Part shown: piece after piece, positions 6,257 through 25,483 of the stretch | How the letters are laid out: every line of letters starts with the position of its first letter | How positions within the stretch are numbered: the first letter of the stretch is position 1 | Assembly (NCBI GenBank): GCA_945866505.1 | Contig: CAMBHH010000020.1 | Span: forward strand, 1-25,483 | DNA: 25,483 nt | Direction: 5' to 3' | Source: Flavobacterium psychrophilum | GTDB lineage: Bacteria > Bacteroidota > Bacteroidia > Flavobacteriales > Flavobacteriaceae | The notes under the pieces: model-generated | What the model was told of the DNA's origin: nothing | The model's input: only the letters and a program-made list of their open reading frames with translations | Databases searched by the model: none | Made by a program: the position numbers and the translations under genes

Positions 6257-6596
6257 ATTAGTTGCGATTTTTGAAATGGTCTATGTTTGTGTTGACGAGC
6301 TAAACTTACCGTTATTCTCAGCTGGTCTAAAAACCTTCGTTTATTTTAAATTGAACTGTAAAATCAAGTAAATATAGTAGATTTAAACTACACATAAATC
6401 TTTTTTTTCAAAGAGTATGTTTTTGTTCTCGAAAAAAAAGTTAGTGCATAACATACTAAAAAATAGAATTATGACTCAAAATAAACCTCACTTAAATGTG
6501 CTTAAACCAGGTTGTTTTTTATACTTATTTTGAAAGTTTAGTTTTTGAATTAGGTTGCGCAATAGCTACGCCTGGTAGCAGAAGTAGTTTATTTTT
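6257..6596. other. Intergenic stretch at the left edge of the accessory block
   Basis: About 340 bp without a credible gene. It holds an 8-bp inverted repeat AGTATGTT...AACATACT (6414-6421 and 6450-6457) and a small hairpin GCTAC-GCCTG-GTAGC (6565-6579). Neither is followed by a T-run in a useful position. The core-like sequence to the left changes here to short genes and repeats on the right. Confidence 0.4.
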
Positions 6597-6920
6597 TTAT
6601 TTGTCGAAATAGGTTGTAATTTCATTTCGCTTTAAATCATAAATATAAAGGTTTCCAAAATAACAACCGGCAAAGTAAAATTTGCTTTTTCTATTTTCCA
6701 TAACCGTCGGATATTCTTCTGTACTTTTTACACCTTGAAATTCTATTTCACTTCCATTAAATATGAAATCTTGATTGTATGCAATTGGATCGCCGAGATT
6801 TATTCCACTTTCTTGTAGCCAAAGATGTTTAGCTCTGTTTGGCATCCAAGTATATCTGTCTACAACGAAAAGAATTGTAAATAATATTACTGAAAATAAT
6901 ATTTTCTGTTTTCGTGACAT
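6597..6920 (-). CDS. Small single-pass membrane protein, unknown function
   Basis: 107 residues. Residues 7-21 (ILFSVILFTILFVVD region) form one N-terminal membrane segment or uncleaved signal. The rest is polar and aromatic with motifs such as YFAGCYFGNLYIYDL, and looks like a small beta-rich extracytoplasmic domain. I do not recognise the family. The start is 37 bp from the left end of the first attC-like repeat and the gene points away from it, so it may be a passenger gene of the same array. Coding character is moderate: normal amino-acid mix and a start with a clear hydrophobic signal. Confidence 0.6.
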   Translation of the reverse strand: MSRKQKILFSVILFTILFVVDRYTWMPNRAKHLWLQESGINLGDPIAYNQDFIFNGSEIEFQGVKSTEEYPTVMENRKSKFYFAGCYFGNLYIYDLKRNEITTYFDK

Positions 6921-6956
6921 TTGTTTGTAATTTAAAATTGTGTTTTAGTATTTCTG

Positions 6957-7088
6957 CTAACGTGCCGCCGCTTCTCGTCAGTTGCGAACTTCGAAACTTT
7001 TTATTTTCCATTAAAGCTAAAAATTCTTGCGAAATGTAAACATGTATTTATTACAAATTTCGCAATCTTGCCAAACGCCTCTTAACGG
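6957..7088. repeat. attC-like palindromic site 1
   Basis: Begins CTAACGTGCCGCCGC and ends TTGCCAAACGCCTCTTAACGG. Between the ends is a strong hairpin: TTGCGAAATGTAA (7027-7039) against TTACAAATTTCGCAA (7051-7065), with a 2-nt bulge; GTTGCGAA at 6981-6988 could pair with the same right arm. The left end shares CTAACGT with the two further sites. The right end shares TTGCCAAAC and TTA(A/G)CGG with site 2. It lies between the 107-residue gene and the higBA promoter. Confidence 0.6.
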
Positions 7089-7117
7089 AAGTGTCTCTGA
7101 TTAATACCAATATTTTG

Positions 7118-7148
7118 TTTGCAAATTGAAAACTTTTTATTAGTTTTG
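7118..7148 (+). promoter_or_regulatory. Promoter of the HigB/HigA operon
   Basis: TTTG (7118-7121), 19 bp, TAGTTTTG (7141-7148): an exact match to the Bacteroidota TTTG-N19-TAnnTTTG pattern. The toxin ATG begins 5 bp after the -7 element, so the transcript would be leaderless or nearly so. Confidence 0.75.
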
Positions 7149-7152
7149 CAAT

Positions 7153-7482
7153 ATGAAAATCCTTGTAAAGAAAACGATTTTATTTTATATCAAAAAATAT
7201 CCAATTGCTGAAACGCAATTACTAATTTGGTATAATGAATTTTCAAAACTCGATTTTCAAAATTTTAATGAACTCAAAAAAGTTTATGGAAACGCAAGTA
7301 TCGTAAATAATAATAGAGTTGTGTTTAACATTAAAGGAAATGATTTCAGATTAGTGATTTCAATAAATTTCCTTCAAACAGCTTGTTACGTGATTTGGTT
7401 TGGAACTCACAAAGAATATGATAAAATAAATGTTGAAACGATTGCTTTTGACACAACAATTCTCACAGATAAAAAATTATAA
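7153..7482 (+). CDS. higB: HigB-family toxin (mRNA interferase)
   Basis: 109 residues matching the HigB_toxin family (RelE-like ribosome-dependent mRNA interferases that cleave translated mRNA). Visible family features are the N-terminal helix region with YPIAETQLLIWY, the central NNRVVFNIKGNDFRLV strand segment, and the C-terminal WFGTHKEYDKINVETI motif, all close to the usual HigB spacing. The start is fixed by the family's N-terminus. The toxin gene precedes the antitoxin gene by 2 bp, the usual order for hig loci. The operon sits between attC-like sites 1 and 2; toxin-antitoxin pairs are frequent passengers in cassette arrays. Confidence 0.9.
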   Translation: MKILVKKTILFYIKKYPIAETQLLIWYNEFSKLDFQNFNELKKVYGNASIVNNNRVVFNIKGNDFRLVISINFLQTACYVIWFGTHKEYDKINVETIAFDTTILTDKKL

Positions 7483-7484
7483 CT

Positions 7485-7841
7485 ATGAACTGGAAAGTAT
7501 TAAAAACGGAAGATGATTATAATAAAGCTTCGATGCGAATGATGGAAATATTTCACGTGCAGCCAAACTCTCCAGAAAGTGATGAGTTAGATTTGCTTAT
7601 CGTGTTAGTCAAAGATTATGACGAAAAACAGTATCAACTTCCTGAACTTGATGTGTTGGAAGTCATAAAATACAAAATGCAAGAAATGGGAATCAAGGCA
7701 AAAGATCTTGAGCCGATAATTGGAAGCAAAGGTCACGTTTCTGCAATTCTTTCTGGTAAAAGAGAAATCACATTGAAAATGGCTCAAAAACTGAAAAACT
7801 ACTTTAGTCTTACTGCTGACGTATTTCTACACAGCGCTTAA
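7485..7841 (+). CDS. higA: HigA-family antitoxin with HTH domain
   Basis: 118 residues. The N-terminal half (LLIVLVKDYDEKQYQLPELDVL region) is the HigA extension that binds the toxin. The C-terminal half, about residues 60-115, is an XRE-type helix-turn-helix: KYKMQEMGIKAKDLEPIIGS, then KGHVSAILSGKREITLKMA. It neutralises HigB and should repress the operon promoter. It is translationally linked to higB (2-bp gap) and ends 39 bp before attC-like site 2, so the pair fills the interval between the two sites. Confidence 0.92.
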   Translation: MNWKVLKTEDDYNKASMRMMEIFHVQPNSPESDELDLLIVLVKDYDEKQYQLPELDVLEVIKYKMQEMGIKAKDLEPIIGSKGHVSAILSGKREITLKMAQKLKNYFSLTADVFLHSA

Positions 7842-7880
7842 CAAATATTGTTCTGTGAAGGATTTCGAACGACATTTCTT

Positions 7881-8019
7881 CTAACGTTTTGCGGCTCGGC
7901 GAAGTGGCGTATTGAGGATCACTTACTTTCAATTTAGCACTAATGGTTATTAGAATTCCAATGTTCACTCTAGGCCAAAACCCGCCATTTTGCCAAACTG
8001 CTTTTAGCGGTTCGGCTTT
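7881..8019. repeat. attC-like palindromic site 2
   Basis: Begins CTAACGTTTTGCGGCTCGG and ends GCCAAACTGCTTTTAGCGG. Inner arms pair as GGC-GAAG-TGGCG (7898-7909) with CGCCA-TTTT-GCC (7983-7994), leaving a central stretch of about 73 nt. This is the R''-L''-loop-L'-R' arrangement of attC sites, with mismatched spacers inside the stem. The right edge GGTTCGGCTTT (8009-8019) is shared exactly with site 3. It separates higBA from the next gene by only 4 bp. Confidence 0.65.
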
Positions 8020-8023
8020 TATT

Positions 8024-8574
8024 TTATAGGTTAAATTTTCTGTTTTTCAAAATTATTATGGATAAGATATATACTATAACAATAGCTATTGGAATTGTTA
8101 TAAATCTGGCAGAAGGAAACAAATACCATAGCACTAAAATTAAGATTGTCCTCAAAATTGAATGAAATAATCCAACCCAATGATCAATTATCCACGTCAA
8201 TGGAACCCACATTAATCCTGTCAAAATTCCAACCGTTAATGGAAGAGATGTATAGTCTTTAATAAAAAATGGTATTGCGATTGAATACACTAAAATCGCT
8301 TGGGCAACTGTAAGAAAAAAAAGAGTGTCAAAAGTATTTTTAGGCTTGCTTTTGTCAAGATAGTTTTCACCAGTCAACTTTGAAATTCCCATAGCTAAGT
8401 AGACAATCGAGCCTGTTGCTATAAACAAAACCCAAACAGTTATCTGATCAGAAAAAAAATCCCTGATAAAGCCACTGTTAACCAAGCAATTAAACCTGCG
8501 ATCGGAGATGCCAAAAGTTTCTTTCGTTTAAATTCTTCCTTTTGCTCTTCAAGTGTTCTTATATTGTCTATCAT
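8024..8574 (-). pseudogene. DUF7010-like membrane protein gene with a frameshift
   Basis: The long frame (8024-8485) encodes four or five membrane segments but has no proper N-terminus. The missing part is found in another frame from an ATG at 8574: MIDNIRTLEEQKEEFKRKK, then LIAWLTVALSGIFF. The frames would join at a run of eight A on the plus strand (8452-8459); one added base gives SGIFFSDQITVWVLF and a protein of 183 residues. The whole resembles the DUF7010 family of small membrane proteins in length and layout; that match is from memory. The slip could be a real mutation, an assembly error or slippage during expression. The gene lies antisense between attC-like sites 2 and 3, with 4 bp and 49 bp to spare. 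Confidence 0.65.
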
Positions 8575-8623
8575 ATTTTGTCAGTTTAAGTTGGTGAATT
8601 ATCCGTTTTGTGCTAAGCTGACC

Positions 8624-8765
8624 GCTAACGTTCCCACGCTACACGCAGGTTGGGGTTAATAATTACTTGTTTTTCAGTTTATTACTGATTTAAAAAATAC
8701 AAGACCGACTTCAAATTGAGCCTAAAGCCCAACTTGCTTGTAGCGTGTGTTGGTGGTTCGGCTTT
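8624..8765. repeat. attC-like palindromic site 3
   Basis: Left arm GCTAACGTTCCCACGCTAC..GCAGGTTGGG (8624-8654), right arm CCCAACTTGCTTGTAGCG (8728-8745) continuing to TGTGTTGGTGG. The arms pair well over ACGCTACA, GCA and GTTGGG. It ends in GGTTCGGCTTT (8755-8765), identical to the right edge of site 2. The central loop is about 70 nt. This is the clearest folded site of the three. Confidence 0.7.
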
Positions 8766-8988
8766 ATTCTGCGAATATATATGTAGTCTTTTTTACTATT
8801 TCTGTTTTAGTTAGCTTTCCATTTTTCGCCAATTCTTTCCACTCGCTTTCTGTCAGTTCAATAAACTTTGAATTCCACGGCTCATTAAAATCAATCTTTC
8901 CTGCTTCTGCCGAATTTAATTCCAATACTTTGTCTTCTAAATGTTCTTCAGATTTTGTATGTTTGCTTATAACTTTATATTTATACAT
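8764..8988 (-). CDS. Small soluble protein, unknown function
   Basis: 74 residues, charged and helical in composition, with motifs VISKHTKSEEHLEDK and FIELTESEWKELAKN. No membrane segment and no recognised family. The stop codon overlaps the right edge of attC-like site 3 by two bases, so the gene starts the next interval of the array, in antisense orientation like the membrane gene before it. The amino-acid mix and the lack of a better frame favour a real gene. Confidence 0.6.
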   Translation of the reverse strand: MYKYKVISKHTKSEEHLEDKVLELNSAEAGKIDFNEPWNSKFIELTESEWKELAKNGKLTKTEIVKKTTYIFAE

Positions 8989-8989
8989 T

Positions 8990-9190
8990 ATGCTTGATTT
9001 TAATTATTATGTTGTTACCTCGTTAGTTAATGACTTTCCGTATTTTACTACTTGTGTTTCTATTAATAACGTATTTTATAGAATTTCTAATTTAGAACTG
9101 TTTTTAGCTGATGGTAAAAGTGGAATTTCTGATGAGATAATAGAATCTATTAATTATAAACTTGTTACAAGTAAGAATTTCACAGTTTAA
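8990..9190 (+). CDS. Possible 66-residue ORF or gene remnant
   Basis: Reads from an ATG one base away from the start of the divergent 74-residue gene, with ordinary-looking sequence (motifs YYVVTSLVNDFPYF and GKSGISDEIIESINYKL). With one base between two divergent starts there is no room for promoters, so this may be the 3' remnant of a larger gene whose front was replaced, rather than a working gene. Confidence 0.3.
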   Translation: MLDFNYYVVTSLVNDFPYFTTCVSINNVFYRISNLELFLADGKSGISDEIIESINYKLVTSKNFTV

Positions 9191-9222
9191 GTTTATTTTT
9201 GTACTTTTGGCTTTTCCAGTTT

Positions 9223-9281
9223 GTTTGTAGAAAGGTCTGTCCTTAAACAGAAGGAGGACTTTAAAATACCCTCCTACAAAC
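9223..9281 (+). other. Candidate branched RNA/DNA fold upstream of a 52-residue ORF
   Basis: An outer stem GTTTGTAG (9223-9230) with CTACAAAC (9274-9281) encloses two hairpins: AAGG-TCTGT-CCTT (9232-9244) and AGGAGG (9252-9257) with CCTCCT (9270-9275), which shares two bases with the outer stem. It ends 3 bp before the ATG at 9285. It could be a leader RNA structure or a degenerate palindromic site. Confidence 0.45.
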
Positions 9282-9284
9282 ACT

Positions 9285-9443
9285 ATGGGTAACATTTACT
9301 CTTTGAAAAATGGACGTTGTTTCAGACGATTGTTCTTAAAATGTTTTAGACACTGGCGCAGTGGTAAACTTGTTTATCCTGTGCACACAGAGTTTATTTC
9401 ATTTTTAGTACCAGCGAAACGCTCATTCTGCAATTGCAGTTAA
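9285..9443 (+). CDS. 52-residue Cys- and Arg-rich ORF, unknown
   Basis: Begins MGNIYSLKNGRCFRRLF and contains CFRHWRSGKLVYP; four Cys and many Arg/Lys/aromatic residues. It is followed after 11 bp by a good rho-independent terminator and preceded by a branched inverted-repeat structure, so a transcript with defined ends is likely. The region is itself rich in short inverted repeats (AGACACTG at 9348-9355 is complementary to CAGTGTCT at 9458-9465; CACTG-GCG-CAGTG at 9351-9363), so the product may be a structured RNA instead of a protein. Confidence 0.4.
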   Translation: MGNIYSLKNGRCFRRLFLKCFRHWRSGKLVYPVHTEFISFLVPAKRSFCNCS

Positions 9444-9454
9444 AACTGGATTTT

Positions 9455-9485
9455 AAGCAGTGTCTGAACCACTGCTTATTTTTTG
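9455..9485 (+). terminator. Rho-independent terminator after the 52-residue ORF
   Basis: Perfect 8-bp stem AAGCAGTG / CACTGCTT with a 7-nt loop, followed by ATTTTTTG on the plus strand. Confidence 0.8.
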
Positions 9486-9504
9486 TCTGTAAAAATAGTG
9501 TTAT

Positions 9505-9735
9505 CTAATCTTCCCCCAAATAATAAAATTTACTTGTCAAAGGTTTATCCACTATTTCTGCAAACTCACCTTTATACCAAAGACACCCCCAACCGCCGTG
9601 TTTTATGGCATAAAAATGGTCTGAAATTATTACTCTTCCATAGACATAATGAATTTCTTCACAGTTAGGAGGTTTAATCCACATACCCTCCTTATAGCGT
9701 TCTTTGCAAATGTCAAAAGCGTCTCCTATCCCCAT
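9505..9735 (-). CDS. 76-residue soluble protein, unknown function
   Basis: Sequence is rich in aromatic residues and Gly, with motifs GMWIKPPNCEEIHYVYG, HGGWGCLWYKGE and TSKFYYLGED. This looks like a compact beta-rich fold. Not recognised. It is oriented away from the 153-residue gene on its right and convergent with the terminator-ended unit on its left. Small single genes of this type fit the passenger character of this block. Confidence 0.6.
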   Translation of the reverse strand: MGIGDAFDICKERYKEGMWIKPPNCEEIHYVYGRVIISDHFYAIKHGGWGCLWYKGEFAEIVDKPLTSKFYYLGED

Positions 9736-9806
9736 AATTCTAAATTTTTAATTTATGTAGCTAATTTAGTAAATATATTTCTTATGTTTGATAAAAACTT
9801 TTTATT

Positions 9807-10268
9807 ATGACTCATATTAACATTATCCATAATTTAGAAAATCTTACAAGCTCTCAAAAGTATAATTTAGAGATAGTTGAAAACATTACTAACAATTTAA
9901 ACTCTATAAGACCTATAAATATTATAGAAAATGTGTTGGCATACGATGGAAAAAATTTTACAATTAAGCAAGGTGGATTTTTAAACAGATTTCTTATAGA
10001 TGATATTAACGTTACTCTTGAAGATAATAAAGAAAAACACTTAAACTTTATAAAAGAGACAATAAAAGAGCATTTTAAAAACTTTGACTACTACAGTAAA
10101 AAGTTGCCAAATGAGTTAGAAAATTTGAAATTTGTATTATCATCAACTATAAAATATTATGAGTTAAATATGGAGTTAGACTTTCCTACTTATTACAGAG
10201 ACTCTGAATTTAAAGATAATATCGACTTACTAAAACAAGCTGTTGAAAAGGAGTTAGCTAAAACTTAA
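9807..10268 (+). CDS. 153-residue helical protein, unknown function
   Basis: Very AT-rich gene coding a polar protein rich in Asn, Ile, Lys and Leu with long helical stretches (KEHFKNFDYYSKKLPNELE, then DNIDLLKQAVEKELAKT at the end). No signal peptide, no membrane segment, no family recognised. A perfect -7 element TATGTTTG lies at 9783-9790, 16 bp before the ATG, but no good -33 box. The 3' end overlaps the convergent 61-residue gene by 11 bp. The base composition is more AT-rich than the core genes, which suits an acquired gene. Confidence 0.7.
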   Translation: MTHINIIHNLENLTSSQKYNLEIVENITNNLNSIRPINIIENVLAYDGKNFTIKQGGFLNRFLIDDINVTLEDNKEKHLNFIKETIKEHFKNFDYYSKKLPNELENLKFVLSSTIKYYELNMELDFPTYYRDSEFKDNIDLLKQAVEKELAKT

Positions 10269-10443
10269 TTTCTTTACCTATTAACTGCTTTTCTTCTGTT
10301 GTAAGTTCAGTTATCCCTACATATATATTTTGTGGGTTAGAGTAGCACAGACCTTTTTCTAAATGCTGTATGTAAACAAGTTCTCCACTCATAAGTTGCT
10401 GAATTTCATTTGGAGTTAATTTTACTAGCTTTTCCGTATTCAT
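10258..10443 (-). CDS. 61-residue small protein, unknown function
   Basis: Begins MNTEKLVKLTPNEIQQLMSG and ends in LTTEEKQLIGKEIKF; charged, with no membrane segment. Clear coding character for its size. It overlaps the end of the 153-residue gene by 11 bp in convergent orientation. Not recognised. Confidence 0.55.
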   Translation of the reverse strand: MNTEKLVKLTPNEIQQLMSGELVYIQHLEKGLCYSNPQNIYVGITELTTEEKQLIGKEIKF

Positions 10444-10641
10444 TTTCGTTTAGTTTTATTTCTAAACGCTGTCGGTTGCTTTTCCACTTTTGGTTCTTTA
10501 AGCTGACCACCAACTCATAAATATACGCAACTCCAAAAGCTACAATACATCTAATCGGTTGATTTTTAATTTTTTATTTCCGAAAACATAAATAAACGCA
10601 TTGCGTTTATTTGTGTTGTCGCTCTTAAAGTTTATTTAAAT
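10444..10641. repeat. Intergenic stretch with inverted repeats
   Basis: No gene seen. A near-perfect palindrome lies at 10590-10612: 11-bp arms around one base, containing AATAAACGCA and TGCGTTTATT. It may end transcripts of the small gene on its right, although the T-tract is poor. GCTGACCACCAACT (10501-10514) resembles the reverse complement of the right end of attC-like site 3, so a decayed site in opposite orientation is possible. Confidence 0.35.
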
Positions 10642-10865: not shown

Positions 10866-11960
10866 TTACAAATTATCTAAAGGACTAATAATTTTCCGAA
10901 TACTTTTGTCGCTTACTTCAGTATAAATCAGGGTGGTTTTTATGTCGTTATGCCCTAAAAGTTCTTGAATAAATCGAATGTCGGTGCCTTGTTCTAGTAG
11001 ATGAGTAGCAAAACTGTGTCGCAAACTATGAATACCTACTGTTTTGTTGATTTTTGCTTTTTGTAAAGCGTTTTTAAAAACCTGTTGCGCACTGCGGCTG
11101 CTATATTGTCCGCCAAACTGTCCTTCAAATAAATACAATTTGGGTTTGTATACTAAAAAATAAGTACGAAGTTGCGGTAGGATACTTTCAGGCAAATTGA
11201 CATAGCGGTCTTTTTTACCCTTGGCTCGTTCGATAAAAACTTGCATCGCTTTGCTGTCAATATCGGTAATTTTTAGATTCACAATTTCCGAAACTCGCAA
11301 TCCCAAACCATAACACAGTTTAAGCATAGTATTGTGTTTTAAATTTGCGGTGGTTTCTAACAGCTTTTTTATGTCTTTGGGAGCAATAACTTTTGGTAAT
11401 TGTAGTGCTTTTTTGGGACGAGGAATTTCTAATAAAAAGCGCTCTCGTCCCAACACCTGCTCATAATAAAATTTTATAGCATTGATGCGGCTGTGAATCG
11501 TGGCTTCTGATAATTGTAGTTCGTTGATGCAATACAAAATATAGTTGCGAATATCTTCTACAGTGGAGCTTTCACCGGGGATTTCTTTCAAGAAATTCAA
11601 ATAAATTCCAAATTCATTGCGATAGGTTTTTAGTGTTGAGGCACTCTAGCCTTTTAATTGTATTTCTTCGATATATCGTTTTAAGACGAATTGATTACCG
11701 TCTTGAATTTGGGACAATGCCGATTTTCCTTCCGTTAGTGCAATCTTAAACCGAATCCGATTTTCCTCCGTATCCGGAAGGTGCCAAGCCACTAGAGATT
11801 GACTCCATCGCGCTCCATCAATTTCCTTAATTCGGGAAATCCATTCGGCGTTCTTTTCGAAATAAACGGCGATTCTTTTGCTGCCTCTATGTGTGATTAT
11901 TTTAGCGCTCCACTGCATAAGCCGTATTTTTCTATGGCTAAAGTAAGGAAAAATTGTCAT
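10866..11960 (-). pseudogene. Tyrosine recombinase gene interrupted by one amber codon
   Basis: One frame of 364 codons (Met15, at 11918, is a likely alternative start) with a single in-frame TAG at codon 105 (11646-11648). Residues 15-95 form an extra N-terminal domain with WSAKIITHRGSKRIAVYF and GARWSQSLVAWHLPDTEEN, known from Bacteroidota integrases. After the stop, SASTLKTYRNEF is the start of the SAM-like core-binding domain; Tyr is usual at the amber position in LKGY-type motifs, so TAT/TAC to TAG is the likely change. The catalytic domain is intact: Arg222 (LGLRVSE), Lys near 249 (AKGKKDR), His311 and Arg314 (HSLRHSF), His337 (LGHND), Tyr346 (IYTEV). The C-terminus ISPLDNL recalls integron integrases, but the IntI-specific insertion is not seen. 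Confidence 0.85.
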
Positions 11961-12627: not shown

Positions 12628-12780
12628 ATGCGTTACAAAGATTTCTTGCACATAAAACTCTTAGAAAAAATAGCCGTGGGCGAAAGTTTCATACACGAAG
12701 CGATAATTTCGGGAAAAGGCATTCTTGTTGACAAAATCACTTCATCGAGAGAAATAATACTAAAAACGTTTATAAAATAG
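12628..12780 (+). CDS. 50-residue ORF, unknown
   Basis: Begins MRYKDFLHIKLLEKIAVGES and ends SSREIILKTFIK. Ordinary amino-acid mix, 25 bp after the HU gene on the same strand, so co-transcription is possible. No family recognised; it might be a fragment of a longer gene cut by the REP-like element that follows 7 bp later. Confidence 0.35.
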   Translation: MRYKDFLHIKLLEKIAVGESFIHEAIISGKGILVDKITSSREIILKTFIK

Positions 12781-12787
12781 TCCACAG

Positions 12788-12921
12788 CATAAGGCTATTT
12801 GTCACTCCGCAGGAGTCTCAACGCACGAGAGTAGGGACGCTTACAGCGTGACAAATAGGTGTGGAAGATTGGATTAAATCAATAGTTCACACAAAACCCT
12901 GAAGAACCAAATATAATAATG
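12788..12921. repeat. REP/MITE-like repeat, copy 1
   Basis: Core hairpin CTATTTGTCAC...GTGACAAATAG (about 12794-12858) containing TCTC-AACGCAC-GAGA, followed by GTGGAAGATT and the right-end sequence TTCACACAAAACCCTGAAG (12886-12904). It matches copy 2 at 13968-14101 at roughly 85-90% by eye and in the same orientation. The left terminal repeat present at copy 2 is missing here. Confidence 0.75.
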
Positions 12922-12949: not shown

Positions 12950-13459
12950 TTACCCCATTGATTTTTTGGTGCGTTTCATCCTTTTGTAATGCGATTGATG
13001 AAGATTTTTAGTACCGGTAATGATGCTGATATTGCCGTCGATTTCCAACATTGCCAACTTTACATCCGAAAAATGTTCCACTCCATGTTCTCGTATCGCT
13101 TCTTTTAATTCATCGTGGGTGATGTTTAATTTGCTCAACGCTTTGAAATCTATTTTCCCGTCGTGGATTAAGATTTCTGGCTTTTCTTGCATAAAATCAC
13201 TGAATTTCGGGAATTTATACATTAATTTTTTTAAAGTAAAGTTGATGATAAAAAGTACAGCAGCTGCGGCCAAACCACCCCAAAGACTCGTGTCGCTTCC
13301 TACCATCGCATTTTGAACCGAGTTGCTAATCAACAAAATTAGAATGACATCGGCGGTGTTGAGTTGTGATAATTCCTTTTTGCCGAAAAGTCGTAAAGCG
13401 ACGACCATAAAAAAATATACGGCAGCACTTCGAATAATAATATCAAAATAAGGATTCAT
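12950..13459 (-). CDS. DUF421 membrane protein (YetF/YcaP type)
   Basis: 169 residues. Three N-terminal membrane segments (residues about 8-25, 38-52, 62-78) include LRLFGKKELSQLNTADVILI and the conserved SNSVQNAMVG loop. A cytoplasmic alpha/beta domain follows with EKPEILIHDGKIDFKALSK and HDELKEAIREHGVE, both typical of the family. DUF421 proteins occur widely; some Firmicute members affect spore germination or stress, but the biochemical role is unknown. The gene is bracketed by two same-orientation repeat copies (12788-12921 and 13968-14101) and a separate MITE-like element lies 26 bp upstream of its start, so its promoter region has been invaded or shaped by repeats. Confidence 0.9.
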   Translation of the reverse strand: MNPYFDIIIRSAAVYFFMVVALRLFGKKELSQLNTADVILILLISNSVQNAMVGSDTSLWGGLAAAAVLFIINFTLKKLMYKFPKFSDFMQEKPEILIHDGKIDFKALSKLNITHDELKEAIREHGVEHFSDVKLAMLEIDGNISIITGTKNLHQSHYKRMKRTKKSMG

Positions 13460-13908: not shown

Positions 13909-14089
13909 GGTACTACTGGGTTTTGTGTGAAAATAAAAAAGAACGAAATCATTTAAAAAGCACAAAATATAAAGCTATTTGTCACTCCGTAGGAGTCTCA
14001 ACGCACGAGACTAGGGACTCTTACAGCTTGACAAATAGGGGTGGAAGATTGAATCTAATTAATTAGTTCACACAAAACCCAGAAGAACC
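13909..14089. repeat. MITE-like element containing REP copy 2
   Basis: Terminal inverted repeats of 23 bp: 13909-13931 and 14067-14089. The inner 16 bp (CTGGGTTTTGTGTGAA and its complement) are perfect and the outer 7 have two mismatches. Inside is the hairpin CTATTTGTCA...TGACAAATAG shared with copy 1. Length is 181 bp, without coding capacity. No clear target-site duplication. Confidence 0.75.
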
Positions 14090-14122
14090 AAAAAATAATA
14101 ATCATCAAATAGAACACAAAAA

Positions 14123-25265: not shown

Positions 25266-25294
25266 CAAAACTTCCCATAAAGTTTTAAAACAAT

Positions 25295-25483
25295 TGAAGG
25301 AATAGCTCAGCTGGATAGAGCATCCCGATTTTTAATCGGGACGGTATCGAAAGTTGAATTTAGTAATAAAGATTATTGGACGCATAGCTCAGCTGGATAG
25401 AGCATCCCGATTTTTAATCGGGACGGTATCGAAAGTTGAATTTAGTAATAAAGATTATTGGACGCATAGCTCAGCTGGATAGA
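25295..25483 (+). repeat. 82-bp tandem repeat of tRNA-like 5' halves (anticodon UUU)
   Basis: Two complete identical 82-bp units (25302-25383 and 25384-25465) and the first 18 nt of a third, cut by the window end. Each starts with a tRNA D-arm (TAGCTCAGCTGGATAGAGC), continues with TCCCGATT-TTT-AATCGGGA (loop TTTTTAA, would-be Lys anticodon), then an AT-rich spacer (CGGTATCGAAAGTTGAATTT and on). The second and third units are preceded by GGACGC, a plausible acceptor 5' strand; the first by GAAGGA. No T-arm or 3' acceptor strand is found. Confidence 0.8.

Follow-up and report, generated by a model that had tools for sequence, protein, structure and literature searches.

The window (the whole stretch analysed, 25,483 nucleotides) contains a recombinase gene and a short array of attC-like sites and genes, which read on the minus strand in the order of a recombinase in two pieces (11960 to 10866), an attI-like motif, a first cassette, site S3, a DUF7010 gene, site S2, a higBA operon, site S1, a gene for 107 aa and half of a further site. 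The N-terminal recombinase piece (11646..11960, minus strand, from the ORF call) carries a domain with the motif ..ARWSQSLVAWHLPD.., and an in-frame TAG at 11646-11648 separates it from the piece at 10866..11600 (minus strand), which lies in the same frame, matches PF00589 (E 6.6e-40) and encodes the catalytic domain of a tyrosine recombinase along with some of its core-binding domain. The attI-like insertion site, TGCGTATATTTATGA|GTTG, is an exact copy of the motif at 10511..10529 on the minus strand, 352 bp past the recombinase. The first cassette (8764..10510, minus strand; about 1.9 kb including its site) starts at attI with 6/7 matches to the R'' end of S3, and its listed ORFs at 10258-10443, 9505-9735 and 8764-8988 on the minus strand and 9807-10268 on the plus strand match nothing in Pfam or NCBIfam at E 0.001.

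The three sites S3 (8622..8756), S2 (7878..8010) and S1 (6954..7088) lie on the plus strand, the folding strand of an array that reads on the minus strand. S3 scores 82.8 bits with a covariance model that includes it in its training set, while S2 (83.5 bits, E 3.3e-20) and S1 (29.9 bits, E 3.4e-6; degenerate, with its strand preference lost) were both recovered though they are outside that set. Between S3 and S2 lies the DUF7010 cassette gene (8024..8485, minus strand; PF22765, E 8.5e-19), and between S2 and S1 the higBA cassette operon (7153..7841; higB 7153-7482, PF09907, E 1.3e-27; higA 7485-7841, PF01381, HTH_3), which is on the plus strand, opposed to the array direction. The last cassette gene, the 107-aa ORF (6597..6920, minus strand, from the ORF list), likewise matched neither Pfam nor NCBIfam at E 0.001. 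Beyond it a last site, truncated to its R'' half (GGTAGCAGAAGTAG), was recognized by eye at 6574..6590 on the plus strand; it matches the cassette start beside S1, GTTAGCAGAAATAC, and the covariance model has no match at this half site. An earlier sequence-only reading had proposed an integron-like cassette array here from three palindromes beginning with CTAACGT, which indeed occur three times on the plus strand, at 6957, 7881 and 8625, with the right-end motifs that it described as common to them and with one gene or operon filling each interval. The first spacing is 924 bp as it gave, whereas the second is 744 bp and not 743. That reading included neither the recombinase nor the attI-like site, which are about 2 to 4 kb distant, and it had no means of telling that the IntI patch is missing from the enzyme.

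We read the window as the distal end of a real chromosomal integron-like platform, an end that has partly decayed, as indicated by the recombinase frame stopped by the TAG, the DUF7010 frame, which is shorter than a 183-aa copy in another Flavobacterium locus (L142), the degenerate S1 and the halved last site. Judged from the stop in its frame, the window's own recombinase is probably dead, and activity is therefore deduced from intact relatives. Sequencing error could conceivably have caused the defects of the window; intact copies are known in relatives. Elsewhere in the window, an 82-bp tandem repeat in two full copies and one partial copy reaches the window end (25293-25483) and has a tRNA-like start, although no tRNA was called, and two repeats (12775-12911 and 13955-14092; 85-89% identical), each with an internal palindrome, lie around a gene for 169 aa (12950-13459).

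The attC-like site family

A scan for paired-arm ends of the form YAAC..GTTR in 81 sequences, counting both strands and overlaps, returned 137 scored pairs at a score of 40, compared with one in sequence shuffled in 100-base blocks. The covariance model was built from 64 sites, 63 of them from other loci plus S3 of the window, and RNAalifold on these aligned sites gave 22 pairs, 17 with compensatory changes. The architecture is attC-like, with paired ends, an unpaired spacer, paired inner arms and a variable loop. The AAC and GTT triplets are present in 64/64 aligned sites, and a G-T wobble is conserved in 60/64 on the modelled strand. The classical R boxes RYYYAAC and GTTRRRY do not both fit in any of 135 sites (the L053 site and one locus-end site excluded), the first fitting in 10 and the second in 7.

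Folded alone, S3 is unusual (z -4.7 on the plus strand and -3.3 on the minus strand), S1 and S2 are not (z between -1.2 and 0), and S1 has its more stable fold on the other strand. The modelled strand was the better-pairing one for the training sites, hence strand tests are also given outside training. With top and bottom defined by the direction of the array, the better fold is that of the bottom strand in 102/136 sites, in 48 of the 73 outside training and in 240/299 sites of the genome G014 described below. In 82 of 89 sites, stability is greater in the excised circle than in the array. By analogy with integrons, recombination through the folded bottom strand is predicted. At one locus (L031, 13791-17574), a second, unrelated palindrome type was observed beside standard sites, with less than 100 bp between matches of both types.

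Polarity, cassette boundaries and the insertion site

Relatives were collected with the 244-aa window recombinase piece as query, and the best 80 of 344 loci were kept (L001-L080; 55-87% identical, nearly all Bacteroidota), among them L014 with an array of the same palindromes immediately past its recombinase. The covariance model gave 197 rows on these loci, and a cut at 34 bits, which also removed weaker opposite-strand copies, left 137 sites in 46/80 loci. All 75 sites downstream of a recombinase are on the minus strand and all 61 upstream are on the plus strand, with a single exception (L053), so that 136/137 keep their side and strand relative to the recombinase; the palindromes do not lie at random relative to genes, the outcome that would have spoken against the sequence-only reading. 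Below the cut, L062 (31.7 bits) and L001 (28.2 bits) each have one site on the wrong side. No site of at least 34 bits was found in 34/80 loci; the contigs of L004, L012 and L020 stop less than 200 bp past the recombinase, and L013 and L022 have 10 kb of sequence past it and still no such site. For the recombinase tree, 47 of the 80 loci were labelled by array side and 33 were unlabelled, giving 24 loci of the 3' layout, including L062, whose label is unreliable, and 23 of the 5' layout. In the window, the array is on the 3' side. Array side maps as one change in 96% of bootstrap trees, with branch support of 79/90.

Integron cassettes begin with sequence complementary to the R'' end of their own site. 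We compared positions 3-9 after the GTT in 93 adjacent pairs of sites of at least 29 bits (window included, L053 excluded), and neighbours matched at 6.23/7 positions, compared with 2.94 for shuffled partners (maximum of 10,000, 3.45) and 3.15 within the same site. Matching persists to about position 14. Position 10 is the exception, agreeing in 1% of cases, and its almost constant mismatch would form a G-T wobble in the bottom strand. This neighbour matching implies that the mobile unit is a gene with its site, with the crossover at the GTT and termini of about 15 nt, and the complementarity of a cassette start to its own R'' holds in the 93 pairs as well as in 282 pairs of G014. Within the window, S3-S2 match at 6/7 positions and S2-S1 at only 4/7, for which reason S1 is considered degenerate.

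The search for movement covered 299 genomes of Flavobacterium, the genus to which L003 belongs. The DUF7010 cassette with S2 (7883-8643) is 90% identical in L142, where the homology starts and stops at the cores and the neighbours differ: one gene is GTPase-like (357 aa) and the other acetyltransferase-like, both named by eye. In L141 the higBA stretch (7087-7904) recurs at 89.5% identity, with different genes around it and without S1; this case is less clean than that of DUF7010 because the higBA body is common to both loci and S1 is not. Gain, loss or transfer of whole cassettes between genomes is thus seen, cleanly for DUF7010 and without its site for higBA, and the exchange of whole site-gene units that the earlier reading had asked about is borne out by the DUF7010 unit. 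Outside arrays higBA is frequent, with 16/19 fetched loci having no site above 17 bits and sites present in L141, L157 and L160.

The exact attI-like motif has one copy in the window (0.02 expected), at the place where cassette matching puts attI. Among the 23 loci of the 5' layout, 16 have, 69-200 bp before the recombinase ORF, a GTT that agrees with the first-cassette terminus at 5/7 positions or more, two others have it at 327-328 bp, and L035, L036, L057, L058 and L069 are off this pattern. In the 3' layout, such a match was found in 20/23 loci, nine at 102-170 bp past the ORF, four at 231-370 bp, six at 524-576 bp and that of L074 at 2.6 kb. The sequence before the insertion point, TGCGTATATTTRWGA|GTT, is conserved in both groups; it is missing at this point from L029, L074, L075, L036, L057, L058 and L069 and partial in L026, with L036 and L058 having the motif at another nearby place. 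The exact motif occurs as a single copy in each of 30/80 loci (L001-L080), 23 of which have sites of at least 34 bits, with the motif on the array side in 23/23, and seven of which have no such site; a single attI-like site beside the recombinase is thus seen in the window and in these 30 loci. When one mismatch was allowed in 14 whole genomes, the motif was located beside the recombinase in eight, only elsewhere in G002 and G005, and not at all in G004, G006, G013 and G014. In G010 and G012, additional attI-like motifs were seen at a distance from the recombinase, some of them close to sites on other contigs; these may mark secondary arrays.

The recombinase and its spread in Bacteroidota

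The best NCBIfam match of the window recombinase is integrase_gron, with 186 bits against a cut-off of 265, and no match above this cut-off was detected in the 14 genomes examined. Its best PDB match is IntI4 (2a3v), with XerA, XerC and XerD next in both sequence and fold. Most relatives are 350-370 aa long, and 71/80 have the N-terminal domain with a W..W motif, a domain for which no Pfam family reached its cut-off; the L014 recombinase shows a SAM-like domain and the catalytic domain. R214, K239, H303, R306, H329 and Y338 are invariant in a 35-row alignment. The IntI patch insertion (patch III) is absent in 80/80 relatives, with 91-94 residues from Box I to Box II, and in the alignment with IntI4 the roughly 43 residues missing between these boxes correspond to the patch. 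An AlphaFold model of the recombinase (pLDDT 84.5, pTM 0.51) has IntI4 2a3v as its closest structure (E 1e-16). For the N-terminal domain alone, the best Foldseek match, 4o66 (the HARP domain of SMARCAL1), is not significant (E 0.25, probability 0.60); L014 has no Pfam HARP match, and 4o66 is not among the 50 entries listed by a second aligner. Relatives of the recombinase, at most 52.6% identical, are also present in 284 plasmid records. The records H1-H10, which are Acinetobacter plasmids and one plasmid of an uncultured bacterium (annotated TnpF), carry recombinases 52.6% identical to the window piece.

By these observations the system is not a canonical IntI integron, and it is filed as a variant of the integron because it fails on the patch, on the integrase_gron cut-off and on the R boxes. 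That this is an ordinary integron of the catalogued kind, its IntI having diverged, is very unlikely, although IntI provides the best PDB and NCBIfam matches and a passage of PMC8618304 lists Bacteroidota among the integron-bearing phyla; all 80 relatives lack the patch, none of the 14 genomes passes the cut-off, no site among 135 has both R boxes, and the text of PMC9024848 (IntegronFinder 2.0), in the part that deals with this, names one complete integron in Bacteroidetes proper, that of Salinibacter ruber M1. As for the patch, a passage of PMC8138268 (Smyshlyaev et al.) describes the insertion as not fully conserved in an integron-like subgroup, yet essential for function, and one of PMC9668308 calls the additional domain of IntI defining and necessary.

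The covariance model matches sites across Bacteroidota, as the sequence-only reading had suggested checking within Flavobacteriaceae. With 13 candidates scored per genome, sites at E 1e-8 or better were detected in 123/247 genomes of the phylum of L003 (Bacteroidota), compared with 4/249 genomes of another phylum (that of L063, Lachnospiraceae). In this other phylum, four short attC-like matches of about 80 nt were observed in G672 (C1:411577-439607), possibly another integron type. A close recombinase (E 1e-60) is present in 66 of the same 247 Bacteroidota genomes, and when the two genome lists were compared by hand, sites were found in 58/66 genomes with it and in 65/181 without a close one (Fisher p 8e-14).

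These figures bear on the possibility that the sites are true cassette boundaries worked on by XerC/XerD or by a distant relative, with this recombinase merely a neighbour. The 65 genomes with sites and no close homologue, as well as the roughly 53% identical recombinases on plasmids of Acinetobacter and others, would be in keeping with it, but the strong co-occurrence of recombinase and sites and the position and side of attI beside this recombinase speak against it, and we consider it very unlikely. In the loci with sites, a tyrosine recombinase adjoins the array.

One long array was found in G014, the genome of L074 (CP058707.1, Bacteroidota bacterium SSA2, one contig of 4.27 Mb), in which 349 sites (188 + 161) at E 0.001 are located on the plus strand from about 3,475,210 to 3,982,501, a stretch of about 507 kb adjoining the recombinase. 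Matches on the opposite strand score lower and fall on these same sites, and no sites were found in the 80 kb before this stretch. The rest of the chromosome was covered with 150 candidates, and all of the best-scoring matches listed lie within the stretch; with nhmmer, 363/364 matches share the same strand. In the neighbour test, 203 of the 282 pairs of G014 match at 6 or 7 of 7 positions. The longest ORFs (at least 60 aa) run along the array direction in 177 cassettes and against it in 20, and 68 cassettes have none. For cassette content, 165 forward ORFs of at least 80 aa were reduced to 127 non-redundant ones, 90 of which were scanned, and the families recovered include PIN and ParE toxins, restriction enzymes, abortive-infection proteins, candidate defence families and DarT-like and Arr-like enzymes. 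This array (L111-L140) occupies about 12% of the chromosome and includes series of sites at intervals of about 660 bp, which resemble repeated cassettes.

That the palindromes are dispersed mobile repeats of the MITE or REP type, placed by chance between small genes, is highly improbable: many related copies per genome would fit, but their positions and strands are not independent of genes and recombinase, a polarity of 136/137 relative to the recombinase is unexpected of MITEs, the termini match across neighbours and not within a site, 349 one-strand sites occupy the 507-kb stretch of G014, and a whole unit ends at the cores (DUF7010 in L142).

The proposed system and known integrons

It is very probable that the system works like an integron and that the sites are attC-like hairpins of a cassette array, which remains the best reading of the palindromes given the side and strand rule, the spread of the covariance-model matches and the recurrent site-gene unit. 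As judged from sequence comparison, the site family and its covariation, the polarity, the termini, the attI position, the link to the recombinase and the recurrence of units are established. In the proposed mechanism, a tyrosine recombinase would insert circular gene cassettes at a fixed attI, TGCGTATATTTRWGA|GTT, and would recombine cassettes with each other at attC-like hairpins folded from the bottom strand, each cassette comprising one or a few genes and one site, with the crossover in the GTT core. We infer that the reaction is performed by this recombinase, which by analogy would act on a folded single strand as IntI does. A more far-reaching reading, to which we give even chances, is that Bacteroidota have their own integron lineage, with a patch-less recombinase aided by an N-terminal HARP-like domain, non-IntI recognition of folded single-stranded sites, arrays of up to about half a megabase and a presence in about half of the species of the phylum.

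Among the top-ranked titles and abstract openings from searches of the open-licence PMC literature (preprints and subscription papers being outside this scope), no description of this system was found. A patch-less lineage would be passed over by the integron survey PMC2426708, which, by its own passage on selection, kept only enzymes with the additional domain of IntI, the domain that PMC9668308 takes as defining and necessary. Judging from the genome comparisons, similar gene-capturing machines appear to be widespread in Bacteroidota. If the system is real, Bacteroidota, which abound in water, soil, sewage and animals, would commonly capture genes as cassettes, the boundaries of these cassettes would be directly readable, and the claimed necessity of the patch for integron recombination would be testable on intact natural enzymes without it.

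XerD is not known to carry the IntI insertion, and the present recombinases resemble XerA, XerC and XerD in this respect, but they differ in their association with an attI-like site and an array of cassettes, and action at dif alone does not explain cassettes. According to a passage of PMC3607928, the Treponema integron recombinase is transcribed toward attI, as it is in the group to which the window belongs. Unlike the Treponema integrons, the system described here is patch-less, and its recombinase tree is divided by layout, with 24 labelled loci of the 3' type and 23 of the 5' type. The chromosomal integrons of Vibrio combine a tyrosine recombinase, attI and long one-directional arrays of bottom-strand hairpin sites with toxin-antitoxin cassettes. 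Like these IntI4/IntIA and VCR arrays, the system has a recombinase, an attI-like site, one-directional arrays, predicted bottom-strand hairpins and toxin-antitoxin cassettes, whereas it differs from them in the absence of the IntI patch, the extra N-terminal domain, R boxes that are not RYYYAAC/GTTRRRY, cassette termini of about 15 nt, a conserved short attI and one array of about 507 kb.
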